Below are positions 55,687 to 61,405 of a DNA stretch of 64,000 bases, piece after piece. How positions within the stretch are numbered: the stretch's first letter is position 1; every line of letters begins with the position of its first letter. Source of the DNA: an uncultured Lachnospiraceae bacterium (GTDB lineage Bacteria; Bacillota; Clostridia; Lachnospirales; Lachnospiraceae); contig CADAHQ010000001.1 of assembly GCA_902787715.1 (NCBI GenBank), positions 310,001 to 374,000 of the forward strand, written 5' to 3'. The notes below the pieces were generated by a model. It saw only the letters and a list, made by a program, of their open reading frames with translations. It ran no database searches and had not been told where the DNA came from. The translations under genes were made by a program, and so were the position numbers.

Positions 55687-55716
55687 AAAAAAGAGAGCCG
55701 GTTTACACCGACTCTC
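55687..55716 (-). terminator. first terminator after the membrane protein cluster, overlapping the stop codon
   Basis: GAGAGTCGG and CCGGCTCTC pair (one G-U), with the TAA stop of the gene in the loop, followed by T6. Together with the next one it makes a tandem terminator. Confidence 0.85.
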
Positions 55717-56407
55717 CGTTTTCCTCAACATCTTCAAGTTCATCCGTTTGTTTCGCTTCATCTGCATATTCCGAACAGTGATGAAACTTTATGGTTTTCG
55801 CAGTGCGATTCAAAAGGCGTATGCAAAGAATCCATGCCGCCCAGGAACCGATGCCTGCGAGAATCCCCGTAATCAGGCTCAGATTGATCCCCGGGAAGAA
55901 GCCGTCCAGCAGAAATTGGATAATCTCCGGCGTAAGCGCCAGCCCGAGGGCGAGAAAAAACTGCCTTCTCCAGGCGAGCGTCAGCTCTTCCTCCTTCGCC
56001 TGTTCACAGATATCCTCCATGCCGTCGTACAGAAAATAGGCAATCACCAGATCCAGCAAAAAGCGGTAATCCGAGAGGCTTTTGTTATTTACGACCAGCA
56101 AAAAGAATATTGTGCCGACGGACACAGCAAATGCAACCGTGAATTTGCCGGAGCACTCTCCCATCCGTGCTAAATTCACCAGCAAAAGCAGTCCCGAGAG
56201 AAGCAAGGCAATGCCTGCCGCCATCTGTACCGGAACAAGGCTGCTGTGTGAAAACGCCAGATACACAAAGAGAGCGACGGCAATCACCGTTTTGTACAAG
56301 GACAACCCTTCCGCGGAGTTCGCAAAGCCCCGGTAATCGGGCTCCTTCACTTCCTCCGGAGCCGCAGTTTCCTCCGACTCCTCAACCACATCTTCAATAT
56401 CCTGCAT
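55703..56407 (-). CDS. hypothetical integral membrane protein (cluster member 3)
   Basis: Not recognised. A 234-residue protein with an acidic N-terminus (EDVVEESEETAAPEE), then hydrophobic segments at about 40-58, 62-82, 90-112, 120-130 and 155-205. No zinc ribbon. The segment AYFLYDGMEDICEQAKEEELTLAWRR aligns with segments in the two upstream genes, so the three proteins are related. The C-terminus is acidic. The ATG at 56407 has GGGGGTAG upstream. It is last in the operon and ends within the first terminator. Confidence 0.8.
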   Translation of the reverse strand: MQDIEDVVEESEETAAPEEVKEPDYRGFANSAEGLSLYKTVIAVALFVYLAFSHSSLVPVQMAAGIALLLSGLLLLVNLARMGECSGKFTVAFAVSVGTIFFLLVVNNKSLSDYRFLLDLVIAYFLYDGMEDICEQAKEEELTLAWRRQFFLALGLALTPEIIQFLLDGFFPGINLSLITGILAGIGSWAAWILCIRLLNRTAKTIKFHHCSEYADEAKQTDELEDVEENGESV

Positions 56408-56434
56408 AAACTACCCCCGCCCCTTTCAAGCCGC

Positions 56435-57217
56435 CTACAACATGCGTAGGCGCTCGGCTGTCTTATTCAGAAGACGAATCTCAAGAATATAAACTACAAT
56501 CTCGCATACAAGGATGCCGATGGCAAACAGCAAGATTGCCGCGGCGTTCTTGAGGGCAATGGAAACAATCGCGCTTGCAATGGTGCCGACAAGGGCCACC
56601 ACAAGAAGCCCCACGTTGATTCCGAACAGTCTCTTCCACTCTGCGGCATACTCAGGCAATTCGGCGCGGTTGCAGATTTCCTGGAAGCCCTTGTAAAGGA
56701 AATACATCGCAGCAATCTCCGCAACGCCTTTGACAAGGTTCCAAACCGAATCGGAACCGCCGCTTCGTTTCACCACATCGCCGATAACCGCTGCAATCTC
56801 CGCAACAATATAACCGATAAATGCCGATGTAAACTTGTCGCAAAATGCACCCAGCTTGTAGATGTAAACAAAGTGGGCAATTGCCGCAACAATAAGACCT
56901 ATCGTAATCGGAAGCGAAAGCAATGCAAAAAGGCTGAGCGTTGCCAAAGACATCGAGCCGCGAACCATGAGATAAAGGAACAAAGTTGCGGCCGTCAAAA
57001 TTAAGGCAACCTTTTTCCAAAACGCCATTTTTTCGATGGGCTCGGCCATCTTTCGATAGTATCCGCTCCAGGGGGAATTGTCTTGTGAAAGATCGGAAAA
57101 AACATTTCCGTACGGCGTATTCTGTACATTCGACGCCGTTCCGTTCACGGTCTCGCCGCAAACGCTGCATCTCGTGGTTCCGTTGGAAACATAAGCACCG
57201 CAATTAGGACAAATCAT
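56435..57217 (-). CDS. zinc-ribbon membrane protein (cluster member 2)
   Basis: Not recognised beyond its plan. The 260-residue chain begins with a zinc ribbon (CPNCGAYVSNGTTRCSVCG, Cys3, 6, 17, 20), a polar linker, then five or six hydrophobic segments: about 68-88, 95-125, 130-155, 175-185 and 205-250. The text MYFLYKGFQEICNRAELPEY is shared in pattern with members 1 and 3. The start follows CGGAGGTATTGCC. Zinc ribbons at the cytoplasmic N-terminus of small membrane proteins often serve protein contact, but nothing is proven here. Confidence 0.8.
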   Translation of the reverse strand: MICPNCGAYVSNGTTRCSVCGETVNGTASNVQNTPYGNVFSDLSQDNSPWSGYYRKMAEPIEKMAFWKKVALILTAATLFLYLMVRGSMSLATLSLFALLSLPITIGLIVAAIAHFVYIYKLGAFCDKFTSAFIGYIVAEIAAVIGDVVKRSGGSDSVWNLVKGVAEIAAMYFLYKGFQEICNRAELPEYAAEWKRLFGINVGLLVVALVGTIASAIVSIALKNAAAILLFAIGILVCEIVVYILEIRLLNKTAERLRML

Positions 57218-57247
57218 GGCAATACCTCCGTGTTATTATTTGGAAAT

Positions 57248-57268
57248 CCGGGGGCAGAACGCCCCCGG
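57248..57268 (-). terminator. intercistronic GC-rich hairpin between members 1 and 2
   Basis: CCGGGGGC and GCCCCCGG around a five-base loop. There is only ATTT after it, so it is probably a stability or partial-termination element. Confidence 0.4.
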
Positions 57269-57274
57269 AAAAAG

Positions 57275-58081
57275 TCAGAATTTGCTCAAGGCCTTCTTCG
57301 TGTTGTTTAGGAATACAAGCTCAACAATTGTCATCACAAGAGCCAACACATAGACGATGACAAGGAGAAACTGGTAAGATCTGAGGGCAGGACCGACATC
57401 GGATATCGTCTGCAAGTTTGTCAGACGGAATACCGCTGCCAATCCGACAACGAATGCCGCAATCATCTCGGCAACCATAAGTTTCCAGCAGAGGCTCCAC
57501 TGGTCTGCCTCCCTGCCGCAATCCGGCAGGCACAAATCCCTCAACGCCATACAATAGTTGTAAGAGAACAGGATGGAAATAACCGACTTTGCAAGGCTGA
57601 CAATCGAAGCGTCCCAGAAAAACTCCACCGCCTCCAACACCATCTGGATAATGAGGAACGTACATACCTTATCAAACAGCGGTTCCGCACGAACCATATC
57701 GTGGAGAACCAGATACGACAAAACCGAGAGAATCAATCCGGTCACACCGACCACGATGGAATAGATTCTGGCATAGACCAGAAAGTTTTCCATATCCGAA
57801 AGACTCGAATTCGAGTTGATCTTGCCCATCAATGCAAAACCGACAATAATTGCCAGTATACTGAGAATAATAGCGGCAATCCGTATACGAATCAGGGAAC
57901 CTAACGGTCCCACCGCCGTCTTCTCTCTTTCTCTTCTGCTTTCAGCCTCCTCCGGAGCCTCCGAAAAATCCATCCGGATGTTCGCCTCGCGGTTCGGCGC
58001 TCCAAATGAAGCCCTCGCCCCGCACATGTCACAAACTCTTGCACCTTCCGGCAACTCAGCACCGCACATCGGACAACGCAT
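57275..58081 (-). CDS. zinc-ribbon membrane protein (cluster member 1)
   Basis: Not recognised beyond its plan. The 268-residue chain starts with a zinc ribbon (CPMCGAELPEGARVCDMCG), then an acidic linker (MDFSEAPEEAESRRERE) and hydrophobic segments at about 68-90, 105-125, 135-150, 190-215 and 232-262. The text NYCMALRDLCLPDCGREADQW corresponds in pattern to the FLY-x-G-x-x-x-IC segment of members 2 and 3. The start at 58081 is preferred to an ATG two codons earlier because GGGAGG is then eight bases away. It heads the operon from the perfect promoter at 58162-58190. Confidence 0.8.
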   Translation of the reverse strand: MRCPMCGAELPEGARVCDMCGARASFGAPNREANIRMDFSEAPEEAESRREREKTAVGPLGSLIRIRIAAIILSILAIIVGFALMGKINSNSSLSDMENFLVYARIYSIVVGVTGLILSVLSYLVLHDMVRAEPLFDKVCTFLIIQMVLEAVEFFWDASIVSLAKSVISILFSYNYCMALRDLCLPDCGREADQWSLCWKLMVAEMIAAFVVGLAAVFRLTNLQTISDVGPALRSYQFLLVIVYVLALVMTIVELVFLNNTKKALSKF

Positions 58082-58161
58082 ACACATACCCTCCCATTTA
58101 GTTATTCACAATTTCGCAATTTTCAAACCGTTTCGCGCGTCGTTTCAAAATTGTTGGGATG

Positions 58162-58190
58162 ATTATACACAAAATAAACACAAATGTCAA
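58162..58190 (-). promoter_or_regulatory. consensus promoter of the membrane protein cluster
   Basis: TTGACA (58185-58190), 17 bases, TATAAT (58162-58167) on the - strand: both hexamers match the vegetative consensus exactly. The leader of about 70 bases is AT-rich. Confidence 0.92.
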
Positions 58191-58212
58191 TATCATTTAC
58201 CATAAAAAATTT

Positions 58213-58240
58213 AAAAAACGCACGAATTTCTTCGCGCGTT
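58213..58240 (-). terminator. ssrA terminator
   Basis: AACGCGCGAA and TTCGTGCGTT around GAAA (one mismatch/wobble) are followed by a T6 tract on the - strand, starting nine bases after the mature 3' end of tmRNA. Confidence 0.88.
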
Positions 58241-58248
58241 CCGTCCTA

Positions 58249-58602
58249 TGGACCTGAGGGGAGTCGAACCCCTGTCCGAATGCCTCGCCACCACGGTTTC
58301 TCCCATTACAGACCACCTATCCGGCTTGCGCCCGTTCCCGCCTCCGTGCGCCGATGATCGGGCTCACGGTCTTGGTAGCTTCATGATACGCCCGCGCGGG
58401 CAAAGCTTACCGCGTGTCGTTTCCCACGTAGATGATGCCGGTTGACCGCTGCGTGGGTGCCACGGGCCGACAGCTGCCTAATTAGGCAGCAAGTGCAAAT
58501 TTGTTATCTGCGTTTATATTTAGGTTTTCCGGTTATTTACATGGTCCGGCACATGAATGGCTTCCGCAATCTTAAAACACCCGTCGAAACCGGTACAAGC
58601 CC
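58249..58602 (-). ncRNA. ssrA: transfer-messenger RNA (tmRNA)
   Basis: Rescues stalled ribosomes and tags the unfinished protein. The 5' end GGGCTTG pairs with CAGGTCC at the 3' end (seven pairs with two G-U), followed by the conserved TACCGGTTTCGACGGG and, at the 3' side, the T-arm GGGTTCGACTCCCC. The tag reading frame is at 58482-58511: GCA resume codon, peptide ADNKFALAA, stop TAA, with the stop inside a GCCTAATTAGGC hairpin. The terminal CCA is not encoded (the next bases are TAG). Its own promoter lies at 58640-58668 and its terminator at 58213-58240. One-piece form, 354 bases. Confidence 0.97.
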
Positions 58603-58604
58603 GG

Positions 58605-58637
58605 AATATAAAAGTGGGCAATCTTCCGACTGCCCAC
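58605..58637 (-). terminator. terminator of the nine-ribbon gene, overlapping the ssrA start site
   Basis: GTGGGCA (58631-58637) and TGCCCAC (58614-58620) form a seven-pair stem followed by TTTTATATT on the - strand, 21 bases after the stop codon of the upstream gene. The predicted ssrA start (about 58633) lies inside the first arm. Confidence 0.7.
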
Positions 58638-58639
58638 CC

Positions 58640-58668
58640 AATATACAGCATTTTCCGCTACTTGTCAA
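58640..58668 (-). promoter_or_regulatory. ssrA promoter
   Basis: TTGACA (58663-58668), 17 bases, TATATT (58640-58645) on the - strand. The -35 hexamer lies in the last codons of the upstream gene. Confidence 0.85.
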
Positions 58669-60388
58669 CCCCGTCCGGTTCACCGTCCCGGGAGTCCGGT
58701 TCCGCTTCCTGCGGGGATGCCTCTTCCGGCTTCGCGGCTTCTGGCAACTCCTCCGGCTTCTCCTCTTCGGAATCGTCCGTAAAGGGCTTGCCGCAGACGA
58801 CGCAGAACTGGGCGCTGCTTAAGTTTACACGCAGGCATCCCGGACAATACTTGACCTCCGCCTCATGTTCAAACGGACGGCCGCATTTGATGCAGAACTT
58901 CGCCGACTTGTCGTTCATTCCCAGGCAGTAAATGCAGTGCTTCACGGATTCGTCGCCGGAGAACCGGTTGCCGCACCGCTCACAGAACTTCGCGTCGGAA
59001 AGGCTCATGGCGCCGCAGACGCTGCAGTATTTGACGGGGGAGATTTCCTCGAGACTGGCTTTCCGCCGCTCTTCGGCGGCTCTGCTCCGCTCCTTCTCGG
59101 CCTTCTCCTTCTCGCGCTGCCTGCGAAGCCTGCTCAGCTCCTCTTCCTTCTGCCTTCTCAACTCCCAGTAGGCCTTCTCGCGCTCATCCCGAAGAGCCTG
59201 GTATTCCGTTTCAATCTGCTTCGAGAGTCTGGTCAGTTCCGCGGCGCGGTCCTTTTCAAGCTCTGCCAATTCCTGTTCTCTCTGCAGTCTCTTTCGAAGG
59301 AGTGCATCCATGGACGCCGAAAGCATGGCGCCGCATTTGGCGCAATACTTCTCATTCTTTTTGTTCACATGGTTACACCACATGCAGACTTCGATATCTC
59401 TTCCCGCTACCTCTGCCGGGGTTTCTTCCCGTGTTTCCGGCTCCTCCGCGTCGTTTCGACTCTCCGAAATAATGTCATCCATCGACTTAAGACGGTATCC
59501 GCAGGAAGTACACAGGGTCACCCGCATACTGTTCAGGTTTCCGCAATTCGGACAGATGACCTTCGGACTGGCCGGAATCCTCGAGGAGGATCCTCTTTTT
59601 GTTCCGACTGCGCCGCTCGGGTTATTCGCGGGCACTGCATCTCCCCGGACCGGCGGCACCGGATTCATAAATGTCGCGCCGCACAGGATGCACCTCTGTG
59701 CATCCACCGGATTCTGGGTCTGGCACATGGCGCAGGTCTTTTGATACACAACTCCACCGGGCGTCAGCTTCTGCCCGCAGATCAGACATTCCGCAGCATC
59801 CTTCGGATTTACATACCGGCACTGCGGACACACGATTTTATCCGGATTCCCGACCCAGGCGTAAGCGACTCCCCGCTTCTTCTCCTGCGGCTCCGCGGCA
59901 GAAGTCCCCTGATCAGCCGGCGAATTTTCCGCCGCAGGCGTTTCTAAAGGGGCTGCATTTTCGGAAGAAGCTGCCGGTGTTGCCTGCGCATCTGCCGTCT
60001 GTGCAGTCTGCTCTGCAGCGGTTGTCCCCTGAGGATTTTCTTCCGCCGGTGCAGCCTGCGAATCGGCAGTCTGAGCGGCCTGCGGATCCGCGGCCGGCGC
60101 TTCCTTCGGCTGTTTTGCCGGCGCAGATTTATGTTTCTTCAGCTGACGCGGCACCTTCTCTCCGGTAGGCACATGCAGCAGAGGAAGGCCGCATTTTTTG
60201 CAATATTCTTCCGTGATGGGATTGACGAACCAACAAGACGAGCAATGAATCTGATTCTCATCGATGGCATCCAGGACACCGCTTCCGTACATCGCAAACC
60301 GTTGCTGGGTGCTGAAAAGGAACGAACCGCAGCCTTCGCAGACGTCGGTGTAGTCTTTGTTTTCAAAACCGCATTCGGGACAGCGCAC
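58658..60388 (-). CDS. hypothetical protein with nine zinc ribbons and a central coiled coil
   Basis: Function not recognised. The 576-residue chain has nine CxxC-x(10)-CxxCG zinc ribbons: two at 3-20 and 49-66, four between about 185 and 350, and three between about 460 and 545. Between ribbons 2 and 3 is an Ala/Gln/Pro/Thr-rich linker of about 90 residues (APAADPQAAQTADSQ), and between ribbons 6 and 7 a strongly charged coiled coil of about 85 residues (EQELAELEKDRAAEL, SRLRRQREKEKAEKE). There is no membrane helix, signal peptide or enzyme domain. The start is a GTG with AAAGGAGG upstream. It follows the six-ribbon gene by 63 bases. A scaffold that holds several partners is the simplest reading, and is inference. 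Confidence 0.85.
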   Translation of the reverse strand: MRCPECGFENKDYTDVCEGCGSFLFSTQQRFAMYGSGVLDAIDENQIHCSSCWFVNPITEEYCKKCGLPLLHVPTGEKVPRQLKKHKSAPAKQPKEAPAADPQAAQTADSQAAPAEENPQGTTAAEQTAQTADAQATPAASSENAAPLETPAAENSPADQGTSAAEPQEKKRGVAYAWVGNPDKIVCPQCRYVNPKDAAECLICGQKLTPGGVVYQKTCAMCQTQNPVDAQRCILCGATFMNPVPPVRGDAVPANNPSGAVGTKRGSSSRIPASPKVICPNCGNLNSMRVTLCTSCGYRLKSMDDIISESRNDAEEPETREETPAEVAGRDIEVCMWCNHVNKKNEKYCAKCGAMLSASMDALLRKRLQREQELAELEKDRAAELTRLSKQIETEYQALRDEREKAYWELRRQKEEELSRLRRQREKEKAEKERSRAAEERRKASLEEISPVKYCSVCGAMSLSDAKFCERCGNRFSGDESVKHCIYCLGMNDKSAKFCIKCGRPFEHEAEVKYCPGCLRVNLSSAQFCVVCGKPFTDDSEEEKPEELPEAAKPEEASPQEAEPDSRDGEPDGVDK

Positions 60389-60451
60389 GGTTCCTCCTTT
60401 CTTCGGAAGCGGCTTTCACACTTCCGACTGTTTTCTGTATTACGGCAAATT

Positions 60452-61405
60452 CTATTGCGGCTTTCCACCCGGAAACCGCGTGTGGCAGTGGACACACACC
60501 GTCACTGTAGGGAGATTGTCATACCCGCAGACAGGACAGCGTTTTTGTAAAAGGCCGCCGCAAATGGCGCAGGTGGTTGCGCCGGGCTTGTTCTTATAAT
60601 CGCATCGGCAGATATCGGGGGGAACACTCCCGCGGGTTCTTCCCGCAATCTGGTTGACGCGGACGGTCTTCTTCGTAATCGGCTCGTCATCGTTTGCCTG
60701 CAACCTGCGAAGCGCCTTCTCTGCATTGAAGGGTTCTGAAACATGAGCAGCATTCCACAGTTTCCGGTAATCCTCCTGGGAATGCTCTTTCGCATCTCCC
60801 TCCCAAAAATCGCTCCTGACATTTCCCACCCGGGGATTGGCCCCGCAGACATCGCAGGTGATTGCGGACCACGGCAGTGCCCGGCCGCATCCCGCGCAGT
60901 AGATTTTCTCATTGCGGAGCTTCTTAAACAGTTCATAGTCCGGCTCCGCTGCCTTCTGCTTCCTGCGCGGAAGCTTTTTGCCGCAGTAATTACAGCAGAT
61001 TGCATTCTCCGGATTGTCGTGGGAACAGCTGCGACACCGGATTATCCCTTCCGTCATCTGTGCCATGGGATCATACTCTGCAGGATATTCCGCTCCCTCT
61101 TCATACGCATAGTATCCGTCGTAATCCTCCGGCATCCCTGCATAGTCCTCCGGCATCTCCGCGTCCTCCGCAAAGCTTCCCGCCGGAACAAACAAAAGCG
61201 GAGCGCCGCAGACTTCACAGGTTTCGGCCCCCGCAGGATTGACATGCCAACAGGCGGAACAACGAACACAATCATCGGGGGCAGGGTCCAGAATGCCTGA
61301 GCCCTCCCGGAAGAAATCCTCCACGTTGTTCGACAGAAATTCCCCGCAGTTCTCACAGACCACGGCATACGGGGGATTGTCACAATTGCAGAACCGGCAT
61401 TTCAC
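60452..61405 (-). CDS. hypothetical protein with six zinc ribbons
   Basis: Function not recognised. The 317-residue chain contains ribbons starting CRFCNCDNPPYAVVC (N-terminal), CSACWHVNPAGAETC, CRSCSHDNPENAICC, CAGCGRALPWSAITC, a divergent one with CRCDYKNKPGATTC (CxC in place of CxxC) and CPVCGYDNLPTVTVC at the end, where the last partner is CVHCH. An acidic Tyr/Glu/Asp-rich stretch lies between ribbons 2 and 3 (about 82-112). No membrane helix. The start is a GTG behind AAGGAGGAG, 23 bases after the atpC stop, so it can be transcribed by read-through from the ATP synthase operon. It is a paralogue in plan of the nine-ribbon protein. Confidence 0.83.
   Translation of the reverse strand: MKCRFCNCDNPPYAVVCENCGEFLSNNVEDFFREGSGILDPAPDDCVRCSACWHVNPAGAETCEVCGAPLLFVPAGSFAEDAEMPEDYAGMPEDYDGYYAYEEGAEYPAEYDPMAQMTEGIIRCRSCSHDNPENAICCNYCGKKLPRRKQKAAEPDYELFKKLRNEKIYCAGCGRALPWSAITCDVCGANPRVGNVRSDFWEGDAKEHSQEDYRKLWNAAHVSEPFNAEKALRRLQANDDEPITKKTVRVNQIAGRTRGSVPPDICRCDYKNKPGATTCAICGGLLQKRCPVCGYDNLPTVTVCVHCHTRFPGGKPQ

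Follow-up and report, generated by a model that had tools for sequence, protein, structure and literature searches.

Two lineage-specific zinc-ribbon protein families meet around ssrA in a Lachnospiraceae genome

Zinc ribbons are recognized in Pfam by generic families such as DZR (PF12773) and Zn_Ribbon_1 (PF13240). DZANK1 (double zinc ribbon and ankyrin repeat protein 1) is a eukaryotic protein with several such ribbons. Zinc-ribbon membrane-associated proteins are reported from Firmicutes membrane-stress operons of the ydjFGHL type and from phage-shock-like operons (PMC11237479). In this study, we analysed a stretch of 64,000 nucleotides from an uncultured Lachnospiraceae bacterium (GenBank assembly GCA_902787715.1, contig CADAHQ010000001.1, positions 310,001 to 374,000), referred to as the window, in which five genes, A to E, lie around ssrA, the gene of tmRNA. 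A and B encode soluble proteins with many zinc ribbons, for whose family we coined the label MZR, and C, D and E encode membrane proteins. We found that A/B and C/D/E are two distinct lineage-specific families that meet here by position.

Both A and B exceeded the Pfam cut-off of DZR (73.2 and 110.2 bits; cut-off 27.3) and that of Zn_Ribbon_1 (25 bits), which C also reached (28.7 bits). D scored 22.6 bits on Zn_Ribbon_1, below the cut-off although all four cysteines are present, and a Pfam search of E at E ≤ 0.1 gave nothing above cut-off. At this threshold generic zinc ribbons, in A, B and C, were the only Pfam families above cut-off, and the single NCBIfam match at cut-off was a borderline 4-Cys prefix domain in B (24 vs 24 bits). 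Pfam and NCBIfam detected neither an enzymatic nor a zinc-transport domain in the five proteins, in agreement with a sequence-only reading of this DNA, which had listed five genes without a recognisable function. Unlike generic DZR and Zn_Ribbon_1 proteins, MZR proteins combine 3 to 11 ribbons per chain (25 members) with a clade-limited N-terminal module and no catalytic domain. DZANK1 (PDB 11xu) was the nearest solved sequence to this module (whole-chain E 3.1e-6; best stretch, 5.8e-4), but Pfam listed no ankyrin repeat in A or B. The ribbons of MZR resemble the RanBP2-type zinc finger (PF00641) in that 112 of 129 fit C-x2-C-x3-N-x6-C-x2-C, which we take to be the RanBP2-type spacing; however, A scored 20.3 bits against a cut-off of 27, and no match was listed for B to E. 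The membrane proteins have membrane-associated zinc ribbons in common with proteins of the ydjFGHL-type and phage-shock-like operons, whereas PspA, band-7, TPM and YpeB-like domains were not among the Pfam matches of the five proteins. C also has an N-terminal ribbon before a membrane helix, like TcaA-type proteins, but C (16.1 bits) and D (11.5 bits) fell far below the NCBIfam equivalog cut-off of 550, and six helices were modelled in C.

Five genes of two families around ssrA

The minus strand carries, in order, atpG, atpD, atpC, A, B, ssrA, C, D, E, a pseudouridine-synthase gene (rluB-like), ligA and metA, the flanking names (atp, rluB-like, ligA, metA) being read from translations. The features of the five genes, in window coordinates, are as follows.

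60452-61405, minus: gene A, soluble multi-zinc-ribbon protein, 317 aa, 6 ribbons; start 23 nt after atpC
61175-61402, minus: N-terminal double-ribbon module of A; on the contig, G000:C1:371175-371402; profile A1 E 2.6e-32 (A itself is a row of A1); LD motif in the linker
58658-60388, minus: gene B, soluble multi-zinc-ribbon protein, 576 aa, 9 ribbons
60155-60385, minus: N-terminal double-ribbon module of B; profile A1 E 4.5e-33 (B itself is a row of A1); 45% identity to the module of A
57275-58087, minus: gene C, 270 aa, N-terminal zinc ribbon and six modelled helices
56435-57217, minus: gene D, 260 aa, N-terminal zinc ribbon and membrane helices; paralogue of C
55703-56407, minus: gene E, 234 aa, ribbon-less paralogue of C and D; aligned to profile positions 39-272

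The earlier account of five open reading frames in this order and strand with 17 ribbons was confirmed (A 6, B 9, C 1, D 1, E 0). Its single ribbon plan, CxxC-x10-CxxCG, held exactly for 15 of them (A 4, B 9, C 1, D 1), whereas the other two, both in A, are the variants CxC-x10-CxxCG and CxxC-x10-CxxCH. A six-frame scan of the window found the strict motif at these 15 places only, and it appeared in none of 20 mononucleotide shuffles of the window. Ribbon ligands account for each of the 36 cysteines in B and for 24 of 27 in A. The G+C content was 0.49-0.51 in C, D and E vs 0.56-0.58 in A and B and 0.53-0.60 in the flanking genes.

The ribbons of the two families share their cysteine spacing only, since asparagine was found at ribbon position 8 in 112 of 129 standard-spacing MZR ribbons vs 0 of 15 membrane-protein ribbons (23 of 152 MZR ribbons with a CxC start were set aside, and 1 of 16 membrane proteins, with another spacing, was dropped). 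Strong matches to the membrane family (E < 1e-50, over the full length or, in genome G219, without the ribbon) were present in 9 of 22 genomes of the genus, all with MZR; this corresponds to 9 of 11 MZR genomes vs 0 of 11 others, two of which had more distant members (4.6e-30 and 7e-24). A single branch of an unrooted ssrA tree of 17 genomes, with support 1.0, separated the 8 usable MZR genomes from the 9 others, so the co-occurrence is phylogenetically confounded and amounts to roughly one event. The other MZR loci that we read had no membrane-family member beside them. We keep the two families apart because of the different ribbon subtypes and the confounded co-occurrence. The earlier suggestion that the soluble proteins contact the membrane proteins through shared partners was not supported, given the two subtypes and the separate units described below. 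The scatter of relatives that had been named as counting against a joint role was found in part, and no known function appeared.

The arrangement had also been described as a cluster wrapped around ssrA, which is correct for the position, but promoter-like sites and terminators divide it.

58246-58602, minus: ssrA (tmRNA); Rfam RF00023, 131.8 bits; ARAGORN 58249-58602; tag ADNKFALAA
58640-58668, minus: promoter-like site of ssrA, TTGACA-17-TATATT, 11/12 consensus match
58215-58242, minus: terminator-like hairpin 3' of ssrA, from the terminator scan
58162-58190, minus: promoter-like site 5' of C, TTGACA-17-TATAAT, 12/12 match, perfect sigma-70-type
55692-55717, minus: terminator-like hairpin at the end of E, from the terminator scan

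The site scan found 9 promoter-like sites, where 4.3 would be expected from shuffles, and 25 terminator-like sites, where 10.3 would be expected. One such site on its own is therefore weak evidence, although this applies less to the two near-perfect promoter-like sites. Sites akin to these two were read by eye around ssrA in several related loci. The start of A is preceded by GGAGGAG, and no promoter-like site was listed by the scan in the 23-nt gap after the atpC stop; A and B are therefore probably the tail of the ATP synthase operon. The cluster thus looks like three adjacent units, A-B behind atpC, ssrA, and C-D-E, in which ssrA is best read as an independent bystander. A hairpin (GGGCAGTC..GATTGCCC) at 58612-58639, between the promoter-like site and the mature 5' end of ssrA, can be read in related loci too and may be either a leader structure or a terminator of the upstream unit. 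A search of the window with an 18-base stretch of the ssrA 3' end (up to 3 mismatches) gave ssrA itself as the single match. With no second ssrA end in the window to bound the cluster, a mobile island integrated at ssrA was rejected.

Both families are under purifying selection. The dN/dS ratio was 0.15-0.38 in the 11 family pairs, from both families, where it could be computed (two of these, with dS near 2.8, are nearly saturated, and four further comparisons were saturated at synonymous sites and gave no ratio), which indicates that the members are real genes. The corresponding values for ligA, the rluB-like gene, metA, atpD and the esterase gene were 0.02-0.11. Both families also diverge much faster than neighbouring genes in most pairs. 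Between G208 and G214, identity was 58% for the membrane protein and 67% for MZR vs 95% for ligA and 97% for the rluB-like protein; between the window genome (G000) and G189, it was 37% for C and 38% for A vs 97% for atpD. The pair G209 and G215 ran counter to this pattern, with membrane proteins 95-97% identical, like ligA. Five MZR orthologue pairs kept 118 of 118 ribbon cysteines, whereas identity was 63-87% at other ribbon residues and 59-85% outside the ribbons.

Anatomy, distribution and neighbours of the multi-ribbon family

The hallmark of MZR is an N-terminal double-ribbon module of about 80 residues. The module of B found that of A at E 3.5e-17, independently of profile A1, whose 15 rows include A and B. 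Among these rows 17 columns were invariant, the eight cysteines and N10, L24, L39, D40, W53, N56, G67, L70 and P74; a G205 member outside the alignment lacks L39 and W53. Nearly all members carry the linker motif [I/V/L]LD, and A and many relatives end in a characteristic C-terminal ribbon pair. A aligned over most of its length with a 392-aa multi-ribbon protein of G211 (40% identity of aligned positions; 31% in BLASTP). The structure model of A gave ribbon blocks with a pLDDT mostly of 76-91, linkers largely below 50 and a pTM of 0.23, which fits beads on a string, with confidently modelled ribbons and flexible linkers. The earlier proposal that the soluble proteins are scaffolds is compatible with this modelled anatomy, the kept cysteines and the lack of an enzymatic domain.

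In one Lachnospiraceae genus, 11 of the 22 genomes had the module at E ≤ 1e-8 and the other 11 lacked it. Among 397 genomes of the family, full-strength matches (E ≤ 3e-32) occurred only in the two genus members sampled, and the best match outside the genus was 6.8e-9; here the best 13 candidates per genome were scored for the module, and the best 6 for protein B and the membrane family, so weak members could be missed. Generic ribbon matches were common, with protein B in 40 of 200 and with the module profile in 132 of 397 family genomes; zinc-ribbon proteins without an enzyme domain are widespread in Lachnospiraceae. The matches listed outside the genus had mostly one ribbon and some had two; they were rejected as relatives, the two best neighbourhoods (G273 and G022) holding ordinary-looking proteins with a ribbon and transmembrane (TM) segments. 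When 84,980 species genomes were scanned, 11 loci turned up. Of these, ten came from nine metagenome-assembled genomes titled Lachnospiraceae or Lachnoclostridium, and the eleventh was a weak cyanobacterial match over 20 residues. Six of the ten loci have rumen, reticulum or omasum in the title, from which the MZR clade would live in the rumen. Protein A had no match at 1e-5 in 50,697 phage and 72,556 plasmid records, and of 22 stretches of viral contigs that fitted the peptide patterns none was confirmed, so that a phage or plasmid origin was not supported. Among the papers listed by our literature searches, none described the family by title or abstract opening.

The MZR loci that we read fall into four types of position, and many of them are arrays. 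One type is upstream of ssrA, the second has a type-B carboxylesterase-like gene on one side and a PF09818 ATPase gene on the other, the third is close to metF/metH-like genes, and the fourth is a further site in G211. The esterase and met names are our own reading of translations, with genes picked by a simple ORF script. Several MZR genes are on contigs other than that of ssrA (e.g. G000:C18, with two further copies of the window genome, G209:C32, G207:C134 and G211:C42). At the esterase/PF09818 site, a gene for a TIR-TM-Sel1 protein (TIR_2 E 1e-20 to 3e-22, plus Sel1) lies among or directly before the MZR genes in G207, G209, G201 and G219 (L102 8133-9638, L105 9351-10685, L106 5840-7384 and L107 6074-7402), and a piece of it precedes the MZR gene in G215. 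TIR relatives were found in 6 of 22 genus genomes, all with MZR genes, the G211 copy not being beside them; none was found at E ≤ 1e-10 in the MZR-bearing genomes G000, G189, G205, G208 and G214. At the met site, an ATPase matching the PADLOC candidate PDC-S01 (E about 1e-140) adjoins MZR genes in L006 (5977-7368) and L101 (7171-8502), and is not the neighbour in L110. Very large, probably surface or secreted proteins are also encoded near TIR or multi-ribbon genes (L197 1011-5489 and L006 9088-13158).

The membrane family and possible roles of the two families

A ten-row alignment placed C, D and E in one family with a ribbon followed by about six helices; E has lost its ribbon, to judge from this alignment. 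Profile A3 over the membrane part gave E values of 8.2e-98 (C), 1.5e-73 (D) and 7.4e-40 (E), all three being rows of the profile, and BLASTP linked D with E and D with C. The model of C, from four sequences, had six helices after the ribbon (pLDDT 79.6, pTM 0.68). None of the matches to Claudin_2 (E) and to DUF2569, DUF996 and DUF7937 (relatives of C) reached its cut-off, and we judged them compositional. Outside the genus, among the best 6 candidates in each of the 397 family genomes, matches below 1e-19 occurred only in genus g74, with five members and a sixth at 2e-12 in G073 and three in G397. Both g74 genomes that we read have genes for a response regulator, the membrane protein, a histidine kinase and a lipoprotein in this order, with gaps of less than 50 bases (L191 1096-6082, plus strand; L192 3688-8676, minus strand). 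The g74 response regulator is 75% identical to one in G209, and a related kinase is present in 4 of 22 genus genomes. The two-component link was rejected for the window genome, where the related kinase is on another contig without an adjoining ribbon-membrane gene.

Our tentative reading is that the locus encodes zinc-stapled adaptors and membrane proteins with ribbons, both specific to the lineage and both part of membrane-linked signalling, and that ssrA is a bystander. A and B would be cytosolic adaptors, in which zinc-stapled knuckles are strung on flexible linkers behind a fixed N-terminal ribbon pair; their ribbon faces would most likely dock proteins and hold together membrane-linked signalling parts. 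From gene neighbourhood, the apparent MZR partner in five related genomes would be the membrane-anchored TIR-Sel1 protein. In C and D the ribbon, which E has lost, would most likely face the cytosol. The three membrane proteins would probably pass on or modulate a signal from the envelope, a role suggested by the relative that shares an operon with a response regulator and a histidine kinase in another genus. The two families are separable and have a clear design, with fixed cysteines, a fixed N-terminal module and a variable middle, in a defined clade under purifying selection, and each has one neighbour link, the TIR-Sel1 protein for the soluble and the two-component system for the membrane family. 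Should the MZR proteins turn out to be adaptors, the clade would be a natural variant series for learning what bacterial zinc ribbons bind.

Several observations weigh against this reading. The TIR gene had no match in the window genome at E ≤ 1e-10, so the TIR link cannot explain A and B there. The operon link of the membrane family was seen only in g74: in G209, the regulator and kinase genes precede ssrA and two ribbon-membrane genes follow it, and in G000, G208 and G214 the kinase gene is elsewhere with no ribbon-membrane gene beside it. A hydropathy scan saw only 4-5 helices in C, D and E, loop charges weakly support the side on which the ribbon lies, and no known fold matched that of C at E ≤ 0.001 in a fold search. 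The promoter and terminator sites are consensus matches and not mapped transcripts. In some MZR pairs the ribbon faces diverge about as fast as the linkers (63% vs 66%), which also fits weak constraint. A bolder form of the adaptor reading appears improbable to us, namely that one Lachnospiraceae clade has in MZR its own diversifying set of adaptors, with varying ribbon faces on fixed staples that plug different inputs into membrane-anchored TIR-Sel1 and ribbon-membrane proteins in an immunity-like signalling network, and that gain, loss and exchange of copies take place at a small number of fixed sites on the chromosome.

It is unlikely that the ribbons of A and B serve to bind RNA or the ribosome and that such binding explains why the two genes stand next to ssrA (ribosome rescue) or follow the ATP synthase operon. 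The RanBP2-like spacing of 112 of 129 ribbons would suit such a role, together with weak matches to the RanBP zinc finger (A, 3.3e-4, under cut-off), ribosomal L40e (B, 33.6 vs 54 bits) and eL40 (PDB, E 0.013). However, MZR ribbons are slightly acidic on average (-0.49 net charge), A and B have a pI of 5.3-5.4 (though other members reach 8.4), the non-cysteine ribbon residues vary, ssrA has its own promoter-like site and terminator, and the MZR genes on other contigs are away from ssrA. A zinc store or buffer, in which the 15 ribbons of an A and B pair would bind 15 zinc ions, seems improbable as well. It would account for all cysteines of B being at ligand positions and for the complete conservation of ribbon cysteines in the orthologue pairs, but a buffer would have no need of the non-ligand residues that are invariant in the 15 rows (N10, L39, D40, W53, N56 and others; the G205 member does without two of these), nor was a zinc-transport domain found in the five proteins by Pfam or NCBIfam.

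We also consider it unlikely that the multi-ribbon proteins are conflict or phage-defence parts, acting as adaptors of the membrane TIR-Sel1 protein and diversifying under an arms race. The TIR-TM-Sel1 gene in or beside MZR arrays of five genomes, the ATPase next to MZR genes in L006 and L101, the copy-number differences, the stubs and the fast divergence all point in this direction. On the other hand, A, B, C and one array MZR had no PADLOC match at E ≤ 0.01, PDC-S01 is itself a candidate system only, the TIR relative of G211 is not beside MZR genes, no dN/dS was near 1, viral contigs, phages and plasmids gave no confirmed match, and half of the genus genomes (11 of 22) lack the module. A joint system of all five genes, with binding between the soluble and the membrane ribbon proteins, would agree with the adjacency and common orientation of the genes and with the strong membrane-family member in 9 of 11 MZR genomes. 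We judge it improbable in view of the promoter-like sites and terminators between the families, the two ribbon subtypes (112/129 vs 0/15), the phylogenetic confounding of the co-occurrence, and the finding that, of 8 MZR genomes with intact ssrA, no more than 3 had both sides of this gene occupied.

Turnover at the ssrA site within the genus

Among these 8 genomes, a ribbon gene was found upstream of ssrA in 4 (G000, G208, G189 and G211) and a family membrane gene downstream in 5 (G000, G208, G189, G209 and G219). G211 has a stub between its intact multi-ribbon gene and ssrA (L094, about 1270-1596), consisting of a module start and then seemingly out-of-frame sequence, and G205 has at ssrA only a 72-aa ORF that opens like C. 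A different protein with two ribbon-like motifs and two TM segments follows ssrA in G201 and the membrane gene in G207.

L096 9956-11185 and L099 1841-3070: 409-aa two-ribbon protein

Where ssrA was incomplete or missing (G207, G214 and G215), the membrane gene precedes the rluB-like gene; in G207 the gene of the two-ribbon protein separates them. Comparison of G209 and G215 gave a dS of 0.10 for the two membrane genes vs 0.57 for the rluB-like gene and 0.47 for ligA (L087 3306-5077 vs L172 3694-5489), and identity in 150-base steps was at first 93-100% and then, close to where the second membrane gene ends, 77-96%. The low dS and this drop suggest an apparent recent exchange of the membrane-gene segment between the two species.

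The position of ssrA differs within the genus, as seen when loci L082-L085, L089-L092, L097 and L098 were compared with the window. In eight MZR-less genomes (G200, G204, G206, G210, G212, G213, G216 and G217), ssrA is within a few kb of clpC/radA-like genes. In two other genomes, G202 and G203, it is beside the rluB-like gene in divergent orientation, and those MZR genomes that show this side also have it beside an rluB-like gene.

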